Below, piece after piece: positions 1,603 to 9,749 of a stretch of DNA of 35,442 nt; within the stretch, counting starts at the first letter, position 1; each line of letters begins with the position of its first letter. The stretch is from Chthonomonadaceae bacterium. GTDB taxonomy: Bacteria; Armatimonadota; Chthonomonadetes; Chthonomonadales; Chthonomonadaceae. The translations under genes were made by a program, and so were the position numbers. The notes below the pieces were generated by a model. That model was not told the DNA's origin. It made no database searches and was given only the letters and a program-made list of their open reading frames with translations. Where the stretch lies: the NCBI GenBank assembly GCA_025054835.1, contig JANWZQ010000097.1, forward strand, positions 1 to 35,442, read 5' to 3'.

Positions 1603-3576
1603 ATGAAATTACGCTATCGCGTGCTCTTGTACTTCGGGGGGATCACGGCTCTGCTGGCTCTGGGCCTGCACGCAGTGCTCTCCAGACACGTCATGCACGA
1701 GTACGTGCAGATGGAGCGACAGAGCGTCGCCAGAGACATGGAGCGTGTGCAGCAGGCGTTCGAGGCCATGCTCTACAACCTGCACATCAAGACAGCCGAC
1801 TGGGCCTCGTGGGATGATACTTACCAGTACATGCAGGATCGGAACCGTGAGTACGCTCAATCCAATCTGATCCCCGAGACTTTGAACAACCTCAATGTCG
1901 ATCTGATCTTACTGACCAATCGTGATATGAAAGTCTTTGACGCGCGTGTGATCCAGCGGTTCCCCGGGCAGGAGGCCCCGGAGCCGGCAGAGGCGCTGGC
2001 ACAGATTCCGGTGCGGCGTTTGCAGTCCTGTGTTCGTAAAGAGCACGGATACTCTGCAGTTATTAACATGAAGAGCACGCCAATGCTGATAAGCGTGCGA
2101 CCTATCCTCACATCAGCCAACAAGGGTCCGCACCGGGGCTGGCTGATCTTCGGAATGTACTTCGAGCGTTCTGCTGTAAGCCGTATGGCGAAGCGGACAC
2201 GTCTGAGCGTGCAGGCGCGTGCCGTGGATCATCCGCAGGCGACCGATATGGATCGGCGCGCATGGGCCGCTCTGAGCGCGGGAGCGCCGGTCTATGTGCA
2301 GGCGCTGGACGAACAGGAGATCTGCGGGTACTGGATGATCCGTGATCTGAACAAACGCCCGTTGCGAATGCTGCAGATCACGCAGCCCCGTGTGATCTAC
2401 AGTCATGGACAGGAGAGCCTGCAACGCCTGTTGTTTCTGGTGTTTGGGGCTGCTGCACTCTTCTGCGGGATCACTTTTCTGCTGATCGAGATGGCTGTTC
2501 TGCGCCGTTTAAGTCACCTTGGCGCGCAGGTCACTGGAATTCAGATGGCGCATGATTACCATCGACGCGTCTTCCTGACAGGGCGCGATGAGCTGGTTGA
2601 TCTGGCCGGGCAGATCAACAACATGCTCTCCACCATTGAAGAGGATCATGCCCTGCTCAGGGAGCGTGAAGAGCAACTGCGCGCCTACAACGAGAACCTC
2701 GAGAGGATTGTTGAGGAGCGCACCTGCCAGATCGAATATCAGGCATACCACGACGCATTGACCGGACTGCCCAACCGCCTGCGATTTCATGACCAGCTGG
2801 AGAAGGCATTGCGGAAGGTGCGTCGATACGGGCGGGGGGTGGCCGTGCTGTTCGTGGATCTGGACAACTTCAAGACGGTCAACGATACACAGGGCCACGA
2901 AGCCGGAGATCGGCTGCTACAGGTCGTCGCAGAACGCCTGCAAGCCTGTGTGGACGGGAAGGGGATCGTTGCCCGTATGGGGGGCGATGAGTTCACGTTG
3001 CTGCTGGAGGATCTGGAGTCGGTGGAGCAGGCGCAGGCACTGGCCGGGGATATTCTGGAGCAATTACGCCGGCCCATTCCGCTGGCGCAGGGCGAGGCAT
3101 ACGTCGGTGGCAGCATCGGCATCGCGTTCACATCGAACAGTAACACGCGCCCCGACGTGCTGTTGCGTGACGCAGATACAGCGATGTACCATGCGAAGAC
3201 GCAGGGCAAGGGCAGTTACGCGGTATTTGAGCCACGTATGAATGAATTGCTTCGAGAGCGTATGGAAATCGAGAACGGCCTGCGGCGCGCTCTGGAGCAA
3301 CAGGAGCTCCGCACGTACTACCAGCCATTGATCGATCTGGCGACCGGGCAGCTGAAGGGTATGGAGGCGCTGGTGCGATGGGAGCACCCGGAAAAGGGTA
3401 TGGTCTCACCCGGGCAGTTCATTCCCATCGCGGAAGAGACCGGCCTGATTGTGCCCATCGGCTACTGGGTTCTGGAGCAGGCCTGTCTGTTCCTGCAGCG
3501 ATGGCAGGAAGCGCATCCGAATAGCACGGCGTTCACCATGAACGTGAACCTCTCGGGAAATCAATTACTGCCGTAA
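1603..3576 (+). CDS. CHASE4-HAMP-GGDEF protein with EAL domain truncated by an in-frame TAA
   Basis: This is the first 657 residues of a membrane-bound cyclic-di-GMP turnover protein. In order there are: an N-terminal transmembrane helix (about 7-25); a periplasmic CHASE4-type sensor containing DWASWDDTYQYM; a second helix at about 270-297; a HAMP-like segment and coiled coil (about 298-375); a GGDEF domain with intact GGDEF at residues 460-464; and the start of an EAL domain with the EAL motif at 588-590. The usual inhibitory RxxD site before GGDEF reads DGKG, so product inhibition through that site is unlikely. Translation stops at TAA (3574-3576), right after NVNLSGNQLLP, in the middle of the EAL fold. 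The rest of the domain continues in the same frame to 4122. As written, cyclase activity is possible and phosphodiesterase activity is not. No clear Shine-Dalgarno site precedes the ATG. Confidence 0.85.
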   Translation: MKLRYRVLLYFGGITALLALGLHAVLSRHVMHEYVQMERQSVARDMERVQQAFEAMLYNLHIKTADWASWDDTYQYMQDRNREYAQSNLIPETLNNLNVDLILLTNRDMKVFDARVIQRFPGQEAPEPAEALAQIPVRRLQSCVRKEHGYSAVINMKSTPMLISVRPILTSANKGPHRGWLIFGMYFERSAVSRMAKRTRLSVQARAVDHPQATDMDRRAWAALSAGAPVYVQALDEQEICGYWMIRDLNKRPLRMLQITQPRVIYSHGQESLQRLLFLVFGAAALFCGITFLLIEMAVLRRLSHLGAQVTGIQMAHDYHRRVFLTGRDELVDLAGQINNMLSTIEEDHALLREREEQLRAYNENLERIVEERTCQIEYQAYHDALTGLPNRLRFHDQLEKALRKVRRYGRGVAVLFVDLDNFKTVNDTQGHEAGDRLLQVVAERLQACVDGKGIVARMGGDEFTLLLEDLESVEQAQALAGDILEQLRRPIPLAQGEAYVGGSIGIAFTSNSNTRPDVLLRDADTAMYHAKTQGKGSYAVFEPRMNELLRERMEIENGLRRALEQQELRTYYQPLIDLATGQLKGMEALVRWEHPEKGMVSPGQFIPIAEETGLIVPIGYWVLEQACLFLQRWQEAHPNSTAFTMNVNLSGNQLLP

Positions 3577-3579
3577 GAT

Positions 3580-4122
3580 GTGGTGAAGCGCGTGGCGCAT
3601 ATACTGCAAACGACCGGGGTCAATCCGCAGCAATTGAAGCTGGAAATTACCGAGAGCATCTTTGTCAGAGATACCGAGGAGATCCTGGAGAAGTTGAAGG
3701 CTCTGAAATCCCTCAGGGTACAGCTGGCCATCGATGACTTCGGAACCGGATACTCCTCCCTGTCCATGCTCAACACGTTCCCCATCGACACTGTCAAGAT
3801 CGATCGCTCGTTCGTGAACCGGTTGAATGAGCCGGATGGCGCTGCGATTGTGGAGACCATCATCGCGCTCTCCCGCACCATGAACCTCACGGTGACTGCC
3901 GAGGGCGTGGAGACCGCAGAGCAGGTGGCGCAGCTGCAGGGCATGCAGTGCGACACCGGACAGGGGTACTACTTCTCCCGTCCCCTCTCGGAAGAGCAGG
4001 TGCAGCAACGCATGCAGTCCGAAGAAGGGTTCGCCGTTCCCGTTGCCACAGAACTGACTGCCGAGGCTATGGAGGCGTTGCTGGAAAGGTTGCTGGGCGC
4101 CGAACTACCGCAGGCGGCATAG
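3580..4122 (+). CDS. C-terminal remainder of the EAL domain, separated by the in-frame stop (likely one broken gene)
   Basis: About 180 residues continue the EAL phosphodiesterase domain in the same frame as the gene ending at 3576. Catalytic and fold motifs are intact: LKLEITES, AIDDFGTGYSSL, VKIDRSFV, TAEGVET and GQGYYFSRPLS. A GTG at 3580 could act as a start, but no credible ribosome-binding site precedes it and a half EAL domain should not fold alone. The simplest reading is one ancestral gene of 839 residues plus stop (1603-4122) with a recent nonsense change; CAA to TAA would be one transition. A sequencing error or stop-codon readthrough are alternatives. It ends 13 bases from the convergent UnbV-type gene. 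Confidence 0.7.
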   Translation: MVKRVAHILQTTGVNPQQLKLEITESIFVRDTEEILEKLKALKSLRVQLAIDDFGTGYSSLSMLNTFPIDTVKIDRSFVNRLNEPDGAAIVETIIALSRTMNLTVTAEGVETAEQVAQLQGMQCDTGQGYYFSRPLSEEQVQQRMQSEEGFAVPVATELTAEAMEALLERLLGAELPQAA

Positions 4123-4135
4123 GCTTCCCGTGCAG

Positions 4136-5812
4136 TCAGGGCTCTGCGACGGTGAGGTACCGATCGATCTGCGGGGCGCTGAGCGTCTGTCGGGCCCCGG
4201 AAGGCCAGTGGATCACCACGCGCTCCACGCGGTCCACGGTGCCCAGTCCGAACAGCAAACGCGTGTCCTGTGCGGAGAGGTAGCTCGACCCGCTCCGAAC
4301 CATGGCCTCCTGCACCTGCTGGCGCGTGTGTACCTCTACCCGGGCCCCGTAGGCGTTCCGGTTGGACTTGCAACCGATCAGGCGCAGGCCGATCCAGTGA
4401 TGGTCCGTTCGGGTCTCGTTGCGCAGCAGACGCAGAGCGCCGACGTTGGGGATGAGTAGAATGTCCGGGCGTCCATCGTTATCAAAGTCACCCCGGCAGG
4501 CACCCCGTCCGACCATGGGAGGGCCAAGGCCAGCGGTCTGCCCGACCTCCACAAAACGGTCCGTGGCCTGCTGCTCGAACAGCAACACAGGTTGCGGATA
4601 ACTCTGCCCCGGGTTGGTTCGCTCCACGTTATCCTCGATATGGCCGTTCGTAACCAGCAGATCCGGTCGGGTGTCCTGATTGAAGTCGGCAAAGAAGAGC
4701 CCGAAAGTGATGTACGGGTAGCTGGGCGTGTGGAGCCCGACCTGTCGGGAGCGTTCCTGATAGATCATCGGGGCCGTGCGTTCGTAGAAGGCAAGCGCCT
4801 CAAAACAGAAGTTCCCGATCGTCAGCACGCGCCGTGCCGGGGGGATACTGGTCACATCGATCCCCATGCCGGCGCGTGCTCTGCCGTTATCGTCCAGCGC
4901 GATCCCGGTATCCAGTCCTACCTCCACGAAACGCCCCCGGCCCGTGTTCCGGTAGACCGTGTTGGGCTCCATGTCGTTGGCGACCAGAATGTCCGGCCAC
5001 CCATCGTCATCGATGTCGTCAATACAGATGCCCAGCGCTTTGGAATGCGGGTTGAAAATACCGGCCTCGCGTGTCACATCGCGGAAGCGCCCCCGGCCCT
5101 CGTTTCGATAGAGCCGGCAGGTCTCACCCGGGTACTCCTGCGGGCGGCAATACGTCTTCTCAATAACGCCGCAGGTCAGGTCCGTCTCCGGGGACCACTG
5201 CAGGTAGTGCCCGACGAACAGGTCCAGCCGGCCATCACGGTTGTAGTCCAGCCAGGCTACCGAGGATGACCATCCCCGATCGTCGATGCCACTCGACGCC
5301 GTAACGTCGATAAAGCGGCGGCTTCCAGCACCGTTCGAGATGTTGTGGAACAGACGACCGCGACCGACGGCGGTCAGGAACAGGTCATCGTAGCCATCGT
5401 TGTCGTAGTCGCCGACAGCGACCCCCATACCGTAAAAGTCAGTCAGGTAGAGCCCGGCCTCCCGTGTGACGTCCCGGAAGCGGCCATTCCCCATGTTGCG
5501 ATACAGGACAACCGCCGGATCCGGGGTGTTGCCAGACTTTCGGCCAGGCCACGCCGGGTTATTCAGGATCAGGATATCCTGCCACCCGTCCTGATCGTAG
5601 TCCAGAAAGGCCCCACCTCCTCCCATGGTCTCTGGCATCCAGCGACGGCCGAACGCGCCGTTCTGGCGGAGGAGAGTCAGCCCTGCTTCCTGTGTGACGT
5701 CGCGAAAGCGCAGTGTTGTGGTTGCCGACGGCGGTGTCGGTTCCGGAGAGAGGGAGCGGCATCCTGCAGAGAGGCACAGGATGGTCAGCAGAGTTGCTCG
5801 CAGCATCATCAT
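4136..5812 (-). CDS. VCBS/FG-GAP-repeat lipoprotein with C-terminal ASPIC/UnbV domain (CRTAC-like)
   Basis: A 558-residue predicted lipoprotein. The N-terminus has a short signal peptide ending in a lipobox-like LSAGC with Cys at residue 18. The body is a series of beta-propeller repeats of the VCBS/FG-GAP type, each with a Ca-binding-like loop (DYDQDGWQD, DYDNDGYDD, DYNRDGRLD, DDIDDDGWPD, DFNQDTRPD, DFDNDGRPD). Many repeats are preceded by RFRDVTREAGL. The last 90 residues, from HHWIGLRLIGCKSNRNAYGARV to the end, form an ASPIC/UnbV domain. Such proteins are usually surface or periplasmic; their substrate is generally unknown. The start ATG overlaps the stop of the TPR gene upstream (ATGA at 5809-5812), so the two are probably translationally coupled. 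Family assignment is firm, function is not. Confidence 0.9.
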   Translation of the reverse strand: MMMLRATLLTILCLSAGCRSLSPEPTPPSATTTLRFRDVTQEAGLTLLRQNGAFGRRWMPETMGGGGAFLDYDQDGWQDILILNNPAWPGRKSGNTPDPAVVLYRNMGNGRFRDVTREAGLYLTDFYGMGVAVGDYDNDGYDDLFLTAVGRGRLFHNISNGAGSRRFIDVTASSGIDDRGWSSSVAWLDYNRDGRLDLFVGHYLQWSPETDLTCGVIEKTYCRPQEYPGETCRLYRNEGRGRFRDVTREAGIFNPHSKALGICIDDIDDDGWPDILVANDMEPNTVYRNTGRGRFVEVGLDTGIALDDNGRARAGMGIDVTSIPPARRVLTIGNFCFEALAFYERTAPMIYQERSRQVGLHTPSYPYITFGLFFADFNQDTRPDLLVTNGHIEDNVERTNPGQSYPQPVLLFEQQATDRFVEVGQTAGLGPPMVGRGACRGDFDNDGRPDILLIPNVGALRLLRNETRTDHHWIGLRLIGCKSNRNAYGARVEVHTRQQVQEAMVRSGSSYLSAQDTRLLFGLGTVDRVERVVIHWPSGARQTLSAPQIDRYLTVAEP

Positions 5813-7146
5813 GGGTCCGGGAGATCGGGCGGGGTGATCCCGAGGCGCGCGTAGAGCGTGCGGAACTCACGCCGGGCCTGCTCCGACTGTGGCTGGAGCA
5901 GGGCCGCGGCCTGTACTTCCGCCATCGCTTTCATGGTGTCGCCAATCTGCAAGTAGTATCGGGCCAGAGTCAGGCGTGCGTTTGCGTCGGATGGGCGCTG
6001 GTCGCGCCGGATAGTCAGTCGCTCCTCTTCCAGGCGATTTGCAAGCGGTCTACGCGCCAGCAACGTTTGTTCCCGGCTGCCAGCGGGATTTCCCATGAGG
6101 GCGTAGGCTTTTGCCAGTTGCATGCGCGCGTCGGGCAGATTGGGTGCGCGTTGCAACATCCGGGTGTACACGTTGGCCGCCTGGGGCATACGTCCCTGCT
6201 CCATATAAAGCTGCCCGAGACGCGACAGGGAGGTCATGTCGTCTGGATGCGCCTGCACCGCGATCAACAGGGACTCTTCAGCACGCGCAAAATCGCGCTC
6301 GGCCAGAAGCGGGTTCATGAGAATGGACCCCAGCAGGGCATGTGCCGGGGCGTTGTCGGGTTGCGCACGGATCAGTGTCTCCAGCTCCTGCCGGGCCTCC
6401 GCAAGACGTTGCAGTTTGAAAAGGATCCGGGCCAGTGTCATGGTAACATCAGGAGTGTCCGGCGCCGCCCTGTCCAGTTCCTGAACGGCCTGCAGGGCGC
6501 GTGGCAGGTCGCCGCGTTGCTCCCACTCCTGCACCAGTGCCAGCCTCTCCCGGATGCTGGCGGTCGGGACTGCGTTCCATGCGCTCTCCAGAAGGTGTGT
6601 GGCTTCCTGCCAGCGCTCCTGCATCACGAGAGCCCGACTCAAACCGATGTAGCCCTGTGCCCCCTGCGGGTCCTCGCCGATGATCTGCCGGTACGTGCGC
6701 TCTGCTCCGGTTGCCAGGCCGAGGTGCAATTGCACGCGACCGAGGGCGTCAAGCACCGGTGGTTCGGCGGGATGCGTGCGCAGGTACTCCTTCAGAGTTA
6801 GATAGGCCGTCAACGGATCTCCCGAGGCAATGCATTCCCGGGTGAAACGGCGAAGAGAACGCGCATCTTCCAATCGCGCGCGCATTGCCTGCCGCTGTTT
6901 CCACCGACGGCGCACCTCGGCGAGGCCCGGAGGAGGCGACGGCGGGGGTGGTGGGGGCAGTGGGGTTGTGACCCACTGACGCGGTACGGCGGGTGCCGGC
7001 TGTGGTGGAGCGGGGCGTTGCAGGATCAACAGGGATAACGCCGCCACCGCAAAACAGGCGAGGATGACACTGGTTACCAGTCTCCTGTCGGAGGCTGTGG
7101 AACGTGGAGATTTGCTCTGCCTATCGCTCTGTGGCTTCCCGCTCAT
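5809..7146 (-). CDS. Membrane-anchored proline-rich TPR-repeat protein
   Basis: A 445-residue protein of tetratricopeptide repeats. The N-terminus is a basic cytoplasmic segment followed by one transmembrane helix (LVTSVILACFAVAALSLLIL). A proline-rich linker with a run of seven prolines comes next, then about eight TPR units to the C-terminus (for example AYGSR-like PDNAPAHALLGSILM and PDDMTSLSRLGQLYMEQGRM segments). Such domains act as protein-protein scaffolds, here probably outside the membrane. I chose the ATG at 7146; the frame is open further upstream to 7272 but that extension lies across a strong stem-loop and has no helix-compatible signal. The stop overlaps the start of the UnbV lipoprotein by four bases. 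TPR and UnbV/VCBS proteins are often found together, so a shared envelope complex is plausible. Confidence 0.85.
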   Translation of the reverse strand: MSGKPQSDRQSKSPRSTASDRRLVTSVILACFAVAALSLLILQRPAPPQPAPAVPRQWVTTPLPPPPPPSPPPGLAEVRRRWKQRQAMRARLEDARSLRRFTRECIASGDPLTAYLTLKEYLRTHPAEPPVLDALGRVQLHLGLATGAERTYRQIIGEDPQGAQGYIGLSRALVMQERWQEATHLLESAWNAVPTASIRERLALVQEWEQRGDLPRALQAVQELDRAAPDTPDVTMTLARILFKLQRLAEARQELETLIRAQPDNAPAHALLGSILMNPLLAERDFARAEESLLIAVQAHPDDMTSLSRLGQLYMEQGRMPQAANVYTRMLQRAPNLPDARMQLAKAYALMGNPAGSREQTLLARRPLANRLEEERLTIRRDQRPSDANARLTLARYYLQIGDTMKAMAEVQAAALLQPQSEQARREFRTLYARLGITPPDLPDP

Positions 7147-7209
7147 GATGCATGATGGAAAAATTCGTGGGTTGACGCAACAGAACCTGCTGTGCCCGGG
7201 CACCGATGG

Positions 7210-7249
7210 AGAGAAGCGCAGGGGGTAAAGGACATCCCTGCGCTTCTCT
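7210..7249 (-). terminator. Perfect 14-bp stem-loop after the pseudopilin gene
   Basis: AGAGAAGCGCAGGG (7210-7223) and CCCTGCGCTTCTCT (7236-7249) form a perfect 14-bp stem with a 12-base loop. It lies 43 bases after the stop of the minus-strand pseudopilin and before the TPR gene. There is no U-tract on the minus strand, so it may terminate, attenuate or protect the 3' end of the abundant upstream message. Confidence 0.6.
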
Positions 7250-7292
7250 GCTAGCATGTCTTGCGGAGACATACTCCGGACATACCGGGGAA

Positions 7293-8141
7293 CTAGCCGC
7301 TGTAGTTAATCGGATCGCGTGGCGACTGCTCGGGTGGCCATCCGGATGCCGGAATGGTCCTCCACTTCCGCCCGAAGGGCACCAGCTTGGCATGTCCGTC
7401 AAAGAAGACCGCGTTGTAGCCCCGGGGGTGATTGTTGTTGGCATTGGGGCAGGCCCCGCCACATCCATCCGGTCCGTCCCAACCAAACACGCCACGCTCG
7501 ACCAGGAAGAAGCGGGTAGCTACGTTGTCCACACGCTCGCTGGGAGGCTGGTTCTCCAGATCGGGGCCGGTAGCAAACGCGGCGAACGGATTCCAGGAGG
7601 CGCGGAAGCTGTAGATCCATGCCGGGAACCACTGGTAGGACTGGGCGCCGATGGCCATCTGCTCCGGGGTCGGTCGACGGAACTTATCCGATGGGCAGTA
7701 CCAGATCTGCTTGTTGCGGGTGTAGGGGCCGATCTGCACATGCATGAGGGTGCGGTAGAACTCGAATCCGTAGGCACATCCGGTGTAGACGGGGCCGCCA
7801 TCTCCGGGATTAAAGCCGCGCCAACCCTGACCCGGCCAGCCCAGCGCCGCGCCGTTATCCAGACACTGGTTGGATGGTGGGTAGGGATTGACGTCCAGGT
7901 TGACCTCCCAGTTTCTGGGACCGGGGTAGGTGCCCATTGGCCACTCCTCGTCGTAGTCCTGGGCGTACATCTTGAAGCCCAGTCCGAGTTGCTTCATGTT
8001 CGACAGACAGGAGGCCGTGCGCGCCTGTTCGCGCGCCTGTGCGAACACCGGGAAGAGAATGGCCGCCAGGATGGCGATGATTGCGATCACGACAAGCAGC
8101 TCAATCAGGGTGAATCCCCTTCTGGTTGATGGGTGGTGCAT
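7293..8141 (-). CDS. Pseudopilin-like protein with prepilin N-terminal domain
   Basis: A 282-residue protein with a prepilin peptidase signal: leader MHHPSTRRG, cleavage expected after G9, then [16 protein letters not shown] with Glu at mature position 5 and the Armatimonadota-like [18 protein letters not shown]. The C-terminal [17 protein letters not shown] carries the DGH motif seen near the end of DUF1559-like proteins. The start at 8141 has a good AGGAG site about nine bases upstream; the frame is open to 8387 but that stretch shows no signal and overlaps the upstream gene. It sits in a regulator-led minus-strand cluster and is a paralogue of the protein at 676-1488 only in its N-terminal third and end motif. 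Function of the mature domain is unknown. Confidence 0.9.
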
Positions 8142-8170
8142 GATGACGTTCTCCTCATAGAGAATGGACA

Positions 8171-8192
8171 GGATACGGCGATCTGCCGTACC
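8171..8192 (-). other. Small stem-loop in the pseudopilin leader
   Basis: TACGGC (8174-8179) and GCCGTA (8185-8190) pair across a five-base loop, with flanking GG/CC. It lies about 30 bases before the pseudopilin start on the minus strand, so in its 5' leader. A role in translation or message stability is possible; only the symmetry is seen. Confidence 0.4.
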
Positions 8193-8224
8193 GGGGTAGA
8201 ACCCGATGCTTTCCTCGTCTCTGC

Positions 8225-8264
8225 GATGCCCGCACCTGCTCCCGGGCAGGTGCTTGCGGGCATC
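8225..8264 (-). terminator. Long stem-loop overlapping the stop codon of the 91-residue gene
   Basis: GATGCCC (8225-8231) plus GCACCTGC (8232-8239) pair with GCAGGTGC (8246-8253) and GGGCATC (8258-8264), leaving a 6-base loop and a 4-base bulge. On the minus strand the stem begins within the TGA of the 91-residue gene. No U-tract follows. It could end or attenuate transcription between that gene and the pseudopilin, or block 3' decay. Confidence 0.55.
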
Positions 8265-8538
8265 AGCGCCCCGTAGGCGGACCTGTAGGGATACTGGTTC
8301 CACCGGGAGCTCCTGCAGGATTGGCACCGGGAGCCGTGGGAATGGAGGTACCTCCGGGGGAAGCCCCTTTGCCTCCTGTGATCTCATTCCAGCGCGCCTG
8401 GACTTCCGGGGGCATTCCCGGCGGTTGCTGGCCGACCCGATTCTCCACGGTCGCGGAACGGGTCAGGGCAAATATGGCGACGGCAATCACGACGGCGATG
8501 ATTGCAATGGCCACAGGGGGTGAAATCTGCTGCTTCAT
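8263..8538 (-). CDS. Small single-helix membrane protein, 91 residues, with Gly/Pro-rich tail
   Basis: I do not recognise a named family. The protein starts with MKQQ, then a single hydrophobic helix (about residues 8-26, [19 protein letters not shown]), a short soluble segment ([16 protein letters not shown]), and a low-complexity Gly/Pro/Thr tail in which GGTSIPT occurs twice. The N-in/C-out topology and short length suggest an exported or membrane-tethered small protein. The start ATG at 8538 is preceded by AGGAG; a longer open frame to 8763 runs back into the regulator gene and is rejected. It lies 65 bases after the GntR/LacI regulator and 121 bases before the pseudopilin, in the same direction, so co-regulation with both is likely. 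Confidence 0.7.
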
Positions 8539-8603: not shown

Positions 8604-9749
8604 TCAGGTTGCAATCAGCTGCTGGTCCGGCGATACTCCCTGCCCGGTGACAGTGTTCTGCATGAGCTCCCTGTAGTGGTCCCGGATCAGCAGTGGCGCA
8701 TCGAGCACGTAGGTGCAATGCGGGGTCCCCGGTTCTATAATCCGATCCAGCAGCGCATGGCACGCGATTTCTCCCATATGCTCGAAGTCCGGCTGGCTTG
8801 TGGCGATCAGGGGCCAGAACCGCCGGGTTTCCTCACGGTTATCGAAGCCGGTCACACAGATGTCCTGAGGTACCCGGACTCCACGAGCCTGCAGATACTC
8901 GATCAGTGCGGCCGCGCGCAGATCGTCTGTTGCGAGGATCGCGGTAGGCGGGTCTGGCATAGACAACCAGCGATCAACCTGTTCGAAAGGAGCGTCCTGC
9001 CTGATTGATGTTGTCTGGCACACCAGGGCCGGCACAAAGGGGATGTTGTGATGGGCCAGCGCTTCCCGGTAACCGCGCATCCGGTTGATCAAAGGGCCGT
9101 GGCGGGTGTTCTCGCTCTGGAACAGAATGCCAATCCGGCGATGGCCCTGCTGGATAAGCCACTCCGTCATGGCATAACCAAGTCGGCGGTTATCAAAAAT
9201 GACCTGCGTGTGCCCCTGCTCCGGGGTACAGACATCGATCAGTATGACAGGCACATCGAACTGCTTATAGATCAGGTAATCGTATCGGTGTTCCTCGTCC
9301 GTACGCGCTACCGGGTAAATGATCAACCCCTGCGCTCCGGAAGCCAGCAACTGCCGGGCCGTCTGCTCCTCACGCTGGACGTTGTTGCCCGCATTGCCCA
9401 TGAGCACACAGTACCCCCGTCTGTGCGCAACACGATCGATCCCGCGGAAGGCGCTCTGCACCAGCACGGCTCCGGAGATCGGACCGATGAAACCGATAGA
9501 GCGTGAAGACCCGTGAGGCCGGAAACTGCCGGATTGGATCACGTAGTTGCCACTCCCCTGCATTTTGAGCAGTTTCCCCTCTGCAGCGAGTGCGGTGAGC
9601 GCCTTGCTAATGGTGGGGCGGCTAACCCGGTACTGTTGCTGCAGATCGCGTTCTGACGGCAGTCGCGTGGAGCGATCTCCCATGCTCCCGAGCAGATAGT
9701 CGACCTCAATTTGTTGCTTCACACGTTGATACAATGGTAAAGATGTCAA
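8604..9749 (-). CDS. GntR-type HTH regulator with LacI/PBP1-like ligand-binding domain
   Basis: A 381-residue one-component regulator of the AraR-like architecture. Residues about 1-75 are a GntR winged helix (PLYQRVKQQI, LPSERDLQQQYRVSRPTISKALTAL, and GSGNYV). Residues about 80-365 are a periplasmic-binding-protein fold of the LacI family (SIGFIGPISGAVLVQSAFRG, GLIIYP, VPVILID, HRRIGILF, ILATDDLRAAALIEYL and VTGFDN). The ligand is usually a sugar, but nothing here names it. The start is TTG at 9749: an in-frame TAG lies just upstream, and the next start would cut the conserved PLYQ. A consensus promoter (TTGACA, 17 bp, TACAAT) stands about 60 bp upstream. It heads the cluster that includes the small membrane protein and pseudopilin and may regulate them. 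Confidence 0.93.
   Translation of the reverse strand: MTSLPLYQRVKQQIEVDYLLGSMGDRSTRLPSERDLQQQYRVSRPTISKALTALAAEGKLLKMQGSGNYVIQSGSFRPHGSSRSIGFIGPISGAVLVQSAFRGIDRVAHRRGYCVLMGNAGNNVQREEQTARQLLASGAQGLIIYPVARTDEEHRYDYLIYKQFDVPVILIDVCTPEQGHTQVIFDNRRLGYAMTEWLIQQGHRRIGILFQSENTRHGPLINRMRGYREALAHHNIPFVPALVCQTTSIRQDAPFEQVDRWLSMPDPPTAILATDDLRAAALIEYLQARGVRVPQDICVTGFDNREETRRFWPLIATSQPDFEHMGEIACHALLDRIIEPGTPHCTYVLDAPLLIRDHYRELMQNTVTGQGVSPDQQLIAT

Follow-up and report, generated by a model that had tools for sequence, protein, structure and literature searches.

The window analysed here is the whole stretch of 35,442 nucleotides, and the feature under study is a reading frame on its forward strand (1603–4122). 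The translated product is 839 residues long and is interrupted just once, by a TAA at 3574–3576 (residue 658); the frame ends naturally at a TAG (4120–4122). Before the stop, Pfam recovers CHASE4 (residues 53–204), GGDEF (residues 381–536) and positions 3–96 of the EAL profile; positions 101–236 of that profile follow after the stop in the same frame (E 1e-39). A first-pass annotation had described a CHASE4-GGDEF-EAL protein split by one in-frame TAA, and both translation and Pfam bear this out, with its coordinates and domains correct. The complete architecture occupies one frame only if the stop is disregarded. The features are as follows:

1603–3576, + strand: open part, comprising the CHASE4 sensor, membrane helices, GGDEF and the first third of EAL, ending at the TAA
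1759–2214, + strand: CHASE4 extracytoplasmic sensor domain (Pfam PF05228, E 7.9e-33)
2743–3210, + strand: GGDEF (diguanylate cyclase) domain, GGDEF motif intact
3277–3984, + strand: EAL (phosphodiesterase) domain, interrupted (PF00563, 251 bits, one TAA inside)
3574–3576, + strand: in-frame TAA in the loop between the third barrel strand and the next helix
3577–4122, + strand: same-frame continuation, comprising the last two thirds of EAL and a tail up to the TAG

Elsewhere in the window lie genes for two pilin-like proteins with an N-methylation motif and DUF1559 (676–1488, + strand; 7293–8387, − strand). Between them, genes for an FG-GAP/UnbV-ASPIC protein and a TPR protein overlap by a few bases and are probably one operon (4136–7272, − strand). 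Further along is a regulator in which a GntR-type DNA-binding domain is fused to a LacI-type sugar-binding domain (8604–9749, − strand). No neighbour recurs beside the homologues in the stretches examined, and therefore orthology is based on sequence alone.

Codon-position composition gives a coding signal on either side of the TAA, with third-codon-position GC at 0.80 after the stop and 0.78 in the pre-stop part of EAL. Chance does not account for the open, motif-complete continuation of 181 codons, since third-position GC stays at this level. The same annotation had listed the EAL catalytic motifs after the stop as intact. ITES (in full, EITES), DDFGTG, VKID and AEGVE are indeed there; the EAL motif proper (EALVRW) and the NVN motif, which it had overlooked, are encoded before the stop. 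Neither repeats nor inverted repeats were found close to the stop, and no second lesion was seen in the gene beyond the TAA itself.

Stop usage was sampled over 587 kb of the genome, containing about 457 predicted genes. The 442 frame ends comprised 274 TGA, 121 TAG and 47 TAA, this gene counted; TAG thus outnumbers TAA by more than two to one in the sample. Twelve other TAA-ended genes in the first 195 kb were checked singly and showed no coding continuation beyond the TAA. Among the 41 tRNA genes there is no suppressor and none whose anticodon matches TAA; a leucine tRNA labelled ‘taa’ was rejected as a decoder, as it reads TTA. The genome also encodes release factor RF2 and another protein that resembles RF1. 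TAA is therefore a true stop in this genome, since there is no suppressor tRNA, both release factors are encoded and about 46 other genes end with it. It could be argued that TAA, being the least used stop, is read by the organism as a sense codon. However, we consider this extremely improbable, because other genes end at TAA with non-coding sequence behind, the matching tRNA is absent, RF1-like and RF2 proteins are both there, and the remaining GGDEF and EAL genes contain no further in-frame TAA.

Comparison with relatives, which the first-pass annotation had proposed as a check, yielded only uninterrupted genes. The search took in 31 genomes of the order and no homologue closer than 42–45% identity was among them. 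The nearest full-length homologues (L005, L006 and L007/L024), from three related Armatimonadota genomes, have the architecture of the query and this level of identity over their full length, but differ in having no stop. Two paralogues from the query's own genome likewise lack an interruption. One of them, G000:C62:17250–19979 (928 codons), resembles the query in its CHASE4-GGDEF-EAL architecture, with 50% identity in GGDEF-EAL, but is a single open frame. A further GGDEF gene adjoins this paralogue on the opposite strand (C62:16565–17068). Across the genome, 1 of 14 GGDEF-containing places and 1 of 4 EAL domains are interrupted, in each case this gene only. A stop in a related EAL gene (G004) sits at the C-terminal end, outside the domain, and was thus set aside as not a comparable interruption.

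None of the 71 homologues has a stop at the column of the TAA. Pro is found there in 39, Ala in 8, Ser in 5, Thr in 4, Gln in 2 and Glu in 1. The commonest residue, Pro, is two changes away from TAA, which counts against a simple history: no trivial one-step change leads from the family consensus to the stop. An origin from CAA, as had been suggested, is possible but not established, given that Gln occupies the column in only 2 of the 71 homologues and most have Pro. Read from this column, the ancestral codon could hardly be named with confidence.

If the stop were old, the sequence behind it should have drifted. Random changes in the post-stop part would be about 70% missense and 3% nonsense, and with missense changes so predominant, drift free of constraint should be visible unless it had lasted for only a small part of the branch. 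On a fixed topology, the terminal branch of the query makes up 3.6% of tree length for the pre-stop part (GGDEF and the start of EAL) and 3.25% for post-stop EAL, a ratio of 0.90 (median of 30 site bootstraps 0.93, range 0.56–1.51). Post-stop identity of the query to the homologues is 0.48, compared with a mean of 0.45 among the homologues themselves. Moreover, the query deviates at 2 of 33 strongly conserved post-stop columns, which is mid-range for intact homologues. Neither relaxed constraint nor further lesions, as expected of a decayed pseudogene, were therefore found. The post-stop EAL has evolved no faster than the part before the stop, and thus the stop is either very recent or absent from the organism.

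The second of these options, in which the TAA entered the draft consensus by mistake through sequencing, assembly or the mixing of strains, deserves to be taken seriously, although we regard it as the less likely of the two. The source genome, an Armatimonadota draft of 3.71 Mb, consists of 202 contigs (completeness 97%, contamination 1.45%), and contig count and relatives indicate that it is probably metagenome-assembled; such a draft lends itself to errors of this kind. The lack of any decay after the stop is also what an intact gene would show. No other conserved gene among the approximately 457 of the 587-kb sample is clearly interrupted, and occasional base errors could account for so low a frequency. 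On visual inspection, the other same-frame continuations in the sample looked like non-coding sequence or adjacent genes, mostly with their own start soon after the stop, and a genome-wide excess of interrupted genes is not supported by this sample. On the other hand, base errors in contig consensus sequences are usually rare, and no frame errors are apparent in the adjacent genes of the window. A search for literature on spurious stops in metagenome-assembled genomes returned nothing. We infer that the stop is probably present in the organism and not in the assembly only.

When GGDEF-EAL is modelled with AlphaFold2 as if the stop were read through (pLDDT 91), the stop falls at model residue 288, between strand 275–280, which bears the NVN motif, and helix 290–301. 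In this model three barrel strands precede the stop and five follow it. The second metal-ligand Glu and both Asp, the Lys, the Glu and the Gln of the EAL active site are encoded after the stop, these residues having well-known roles in EAL enzymes. All catalytic residues are thus encoded but split by the TAA behind the third barrel strand, and the complete barrel with its set of E, N, E, D, D, K, E and Q is not contained in one polypeptide. Because the stop lies behind the third of eight strands, phosphodiesterase activity of the truncated product should be lost.

The GGDEF motif and all invariant columns of the GGDEF region are preserved in an alignment of 27 sequences, so that the motif and the metal and nucleotide residues expected of an active cyclase appear to be present. 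The RxxD product-inhibition site before GGDEF is missing; CVDGKGIVARM stands where most homologues have CVRxxDTVARL. This replacement is located at window positions 2950–3010. The RxxD site is regulatory and dispensable for cyclase activity. The truncated product could be a cyclase without the RxxD brake, by analogy with YciR cut after GGDEF (PMC10333796), or could be unstable because its C-terminus would be an unfolded one-third barrel. Besides this gene the genome retains three EAL domains, one of them in the intact CHASE4-GGDEF-EAL paralogue, and 13 GGDEF domains. The proposal that the interruption changes the cyclic-di-GMP balance is accordingly speculative, both because these domains remain and because the truncated GGDEF protein may be unstable.

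A stop need not mean that no product is made. In Shigella, diguanylate cyclase pseudogenes that carry nonsense mutations can remain sources of cyclic-di-GMP, seemingly through readthrough or a restart of translation, and some of these interrupted dgc genes yield full-length-sized or restarted protein (PMC11327459). With this precedent, a conserved post-stop frame and in-frame GTG codons directly behind the stop (3580, 3583 and 3592), one might envisage a functional split or regulated readthrough here, yielding the full-length protein or a second EAL piece. We find this unlikely, as TAA is a normal stop in a genome with both release factors and no suppressor tRNA, and related genes have no stop at this position. 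Nor does a Shine-Dalgarno-like sequence precede any of the three GTG codons, leaving them without a ribosome-binding site, and a restart product would have just five of the eight barrel strands. Programmed readthrough would be marked by conservation of the stop in relatives or by a suppressor or recoding signal, none of which was found. The functional readthrough suggested in the first-pass annotation is therefore unsupported, whilst its other suggestion, a very recent nonsense change or an assembly error, fits one stop without later decay and without another clear interruption in the sample.

In summary, these data probably reflect a recent single nonsense change in a CHASE4-GGDEF-EAL gene, with no further decay visible. 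On this reading, the gene of an uncultured Armatimonadota bacterium would have gained one nonsense codon in EAL and translation would halt at residue 657. The product would retain the sensor, the membrane anchor, a motif-complete GGDEF and three of the eight EAL barrel strands, and would either work as a cyclase that has lost its phosphodiesterase activity or be unstable, a fragment en route to a pseudogene. A more elaborate scenario is a selected population-level switch, in which some of the cells have a truncated protein, lacking both RxxD and the phosphodiesterase half, that makes cyclic-di-GMP constitutively, whilst leaky readthrough restores a little full-length enzyme; we give this very little credence. 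Whether mutation or error, the biology of the interruption is ordinary. Should it be real, it adds to the examples of how quickly cyclic-di-GMP enzymes turn over, here in a phylum that has seen few experiments. In practice the case is a warning: automatic annotation will report either a pseudogene or a pair of genes at 1603–4122, and a cyclic-di-GMP census of the genome would miscount one phosphodiesterase.

Among proteins of solved structure, 5m3c scores best across the EAL region (E 1e-70). This is MucR (PDB 5m3c, 5m1t), which together with the MorA-type ‘motility regulator’ (4rnf, 4rnh, 4rni) and DosP belongs to the GGDEF-EAL phosphodiesterases. The query shares with them the tandem GGDEF-EAL arrangement and the EAL catalytic residues; unlike them, it has CHASE4 as its sensor and its EAL frame is cut by one TAA. 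In losing part of a gene by a stop or truncation, the query resembles the degenerate dgc genes of Shigella (PMC11327459) and truncated YciR of E. coli, which acts as a cyclase when cut just after GGDEF (PMC10333796). The Shigella and E. coli alleles come from cultured enterobacteria with relatives and experiments, whereas the query is known from one draft genome. Moreover, YciR was cut between domains, whereas the cut in the query falls inside EAL.
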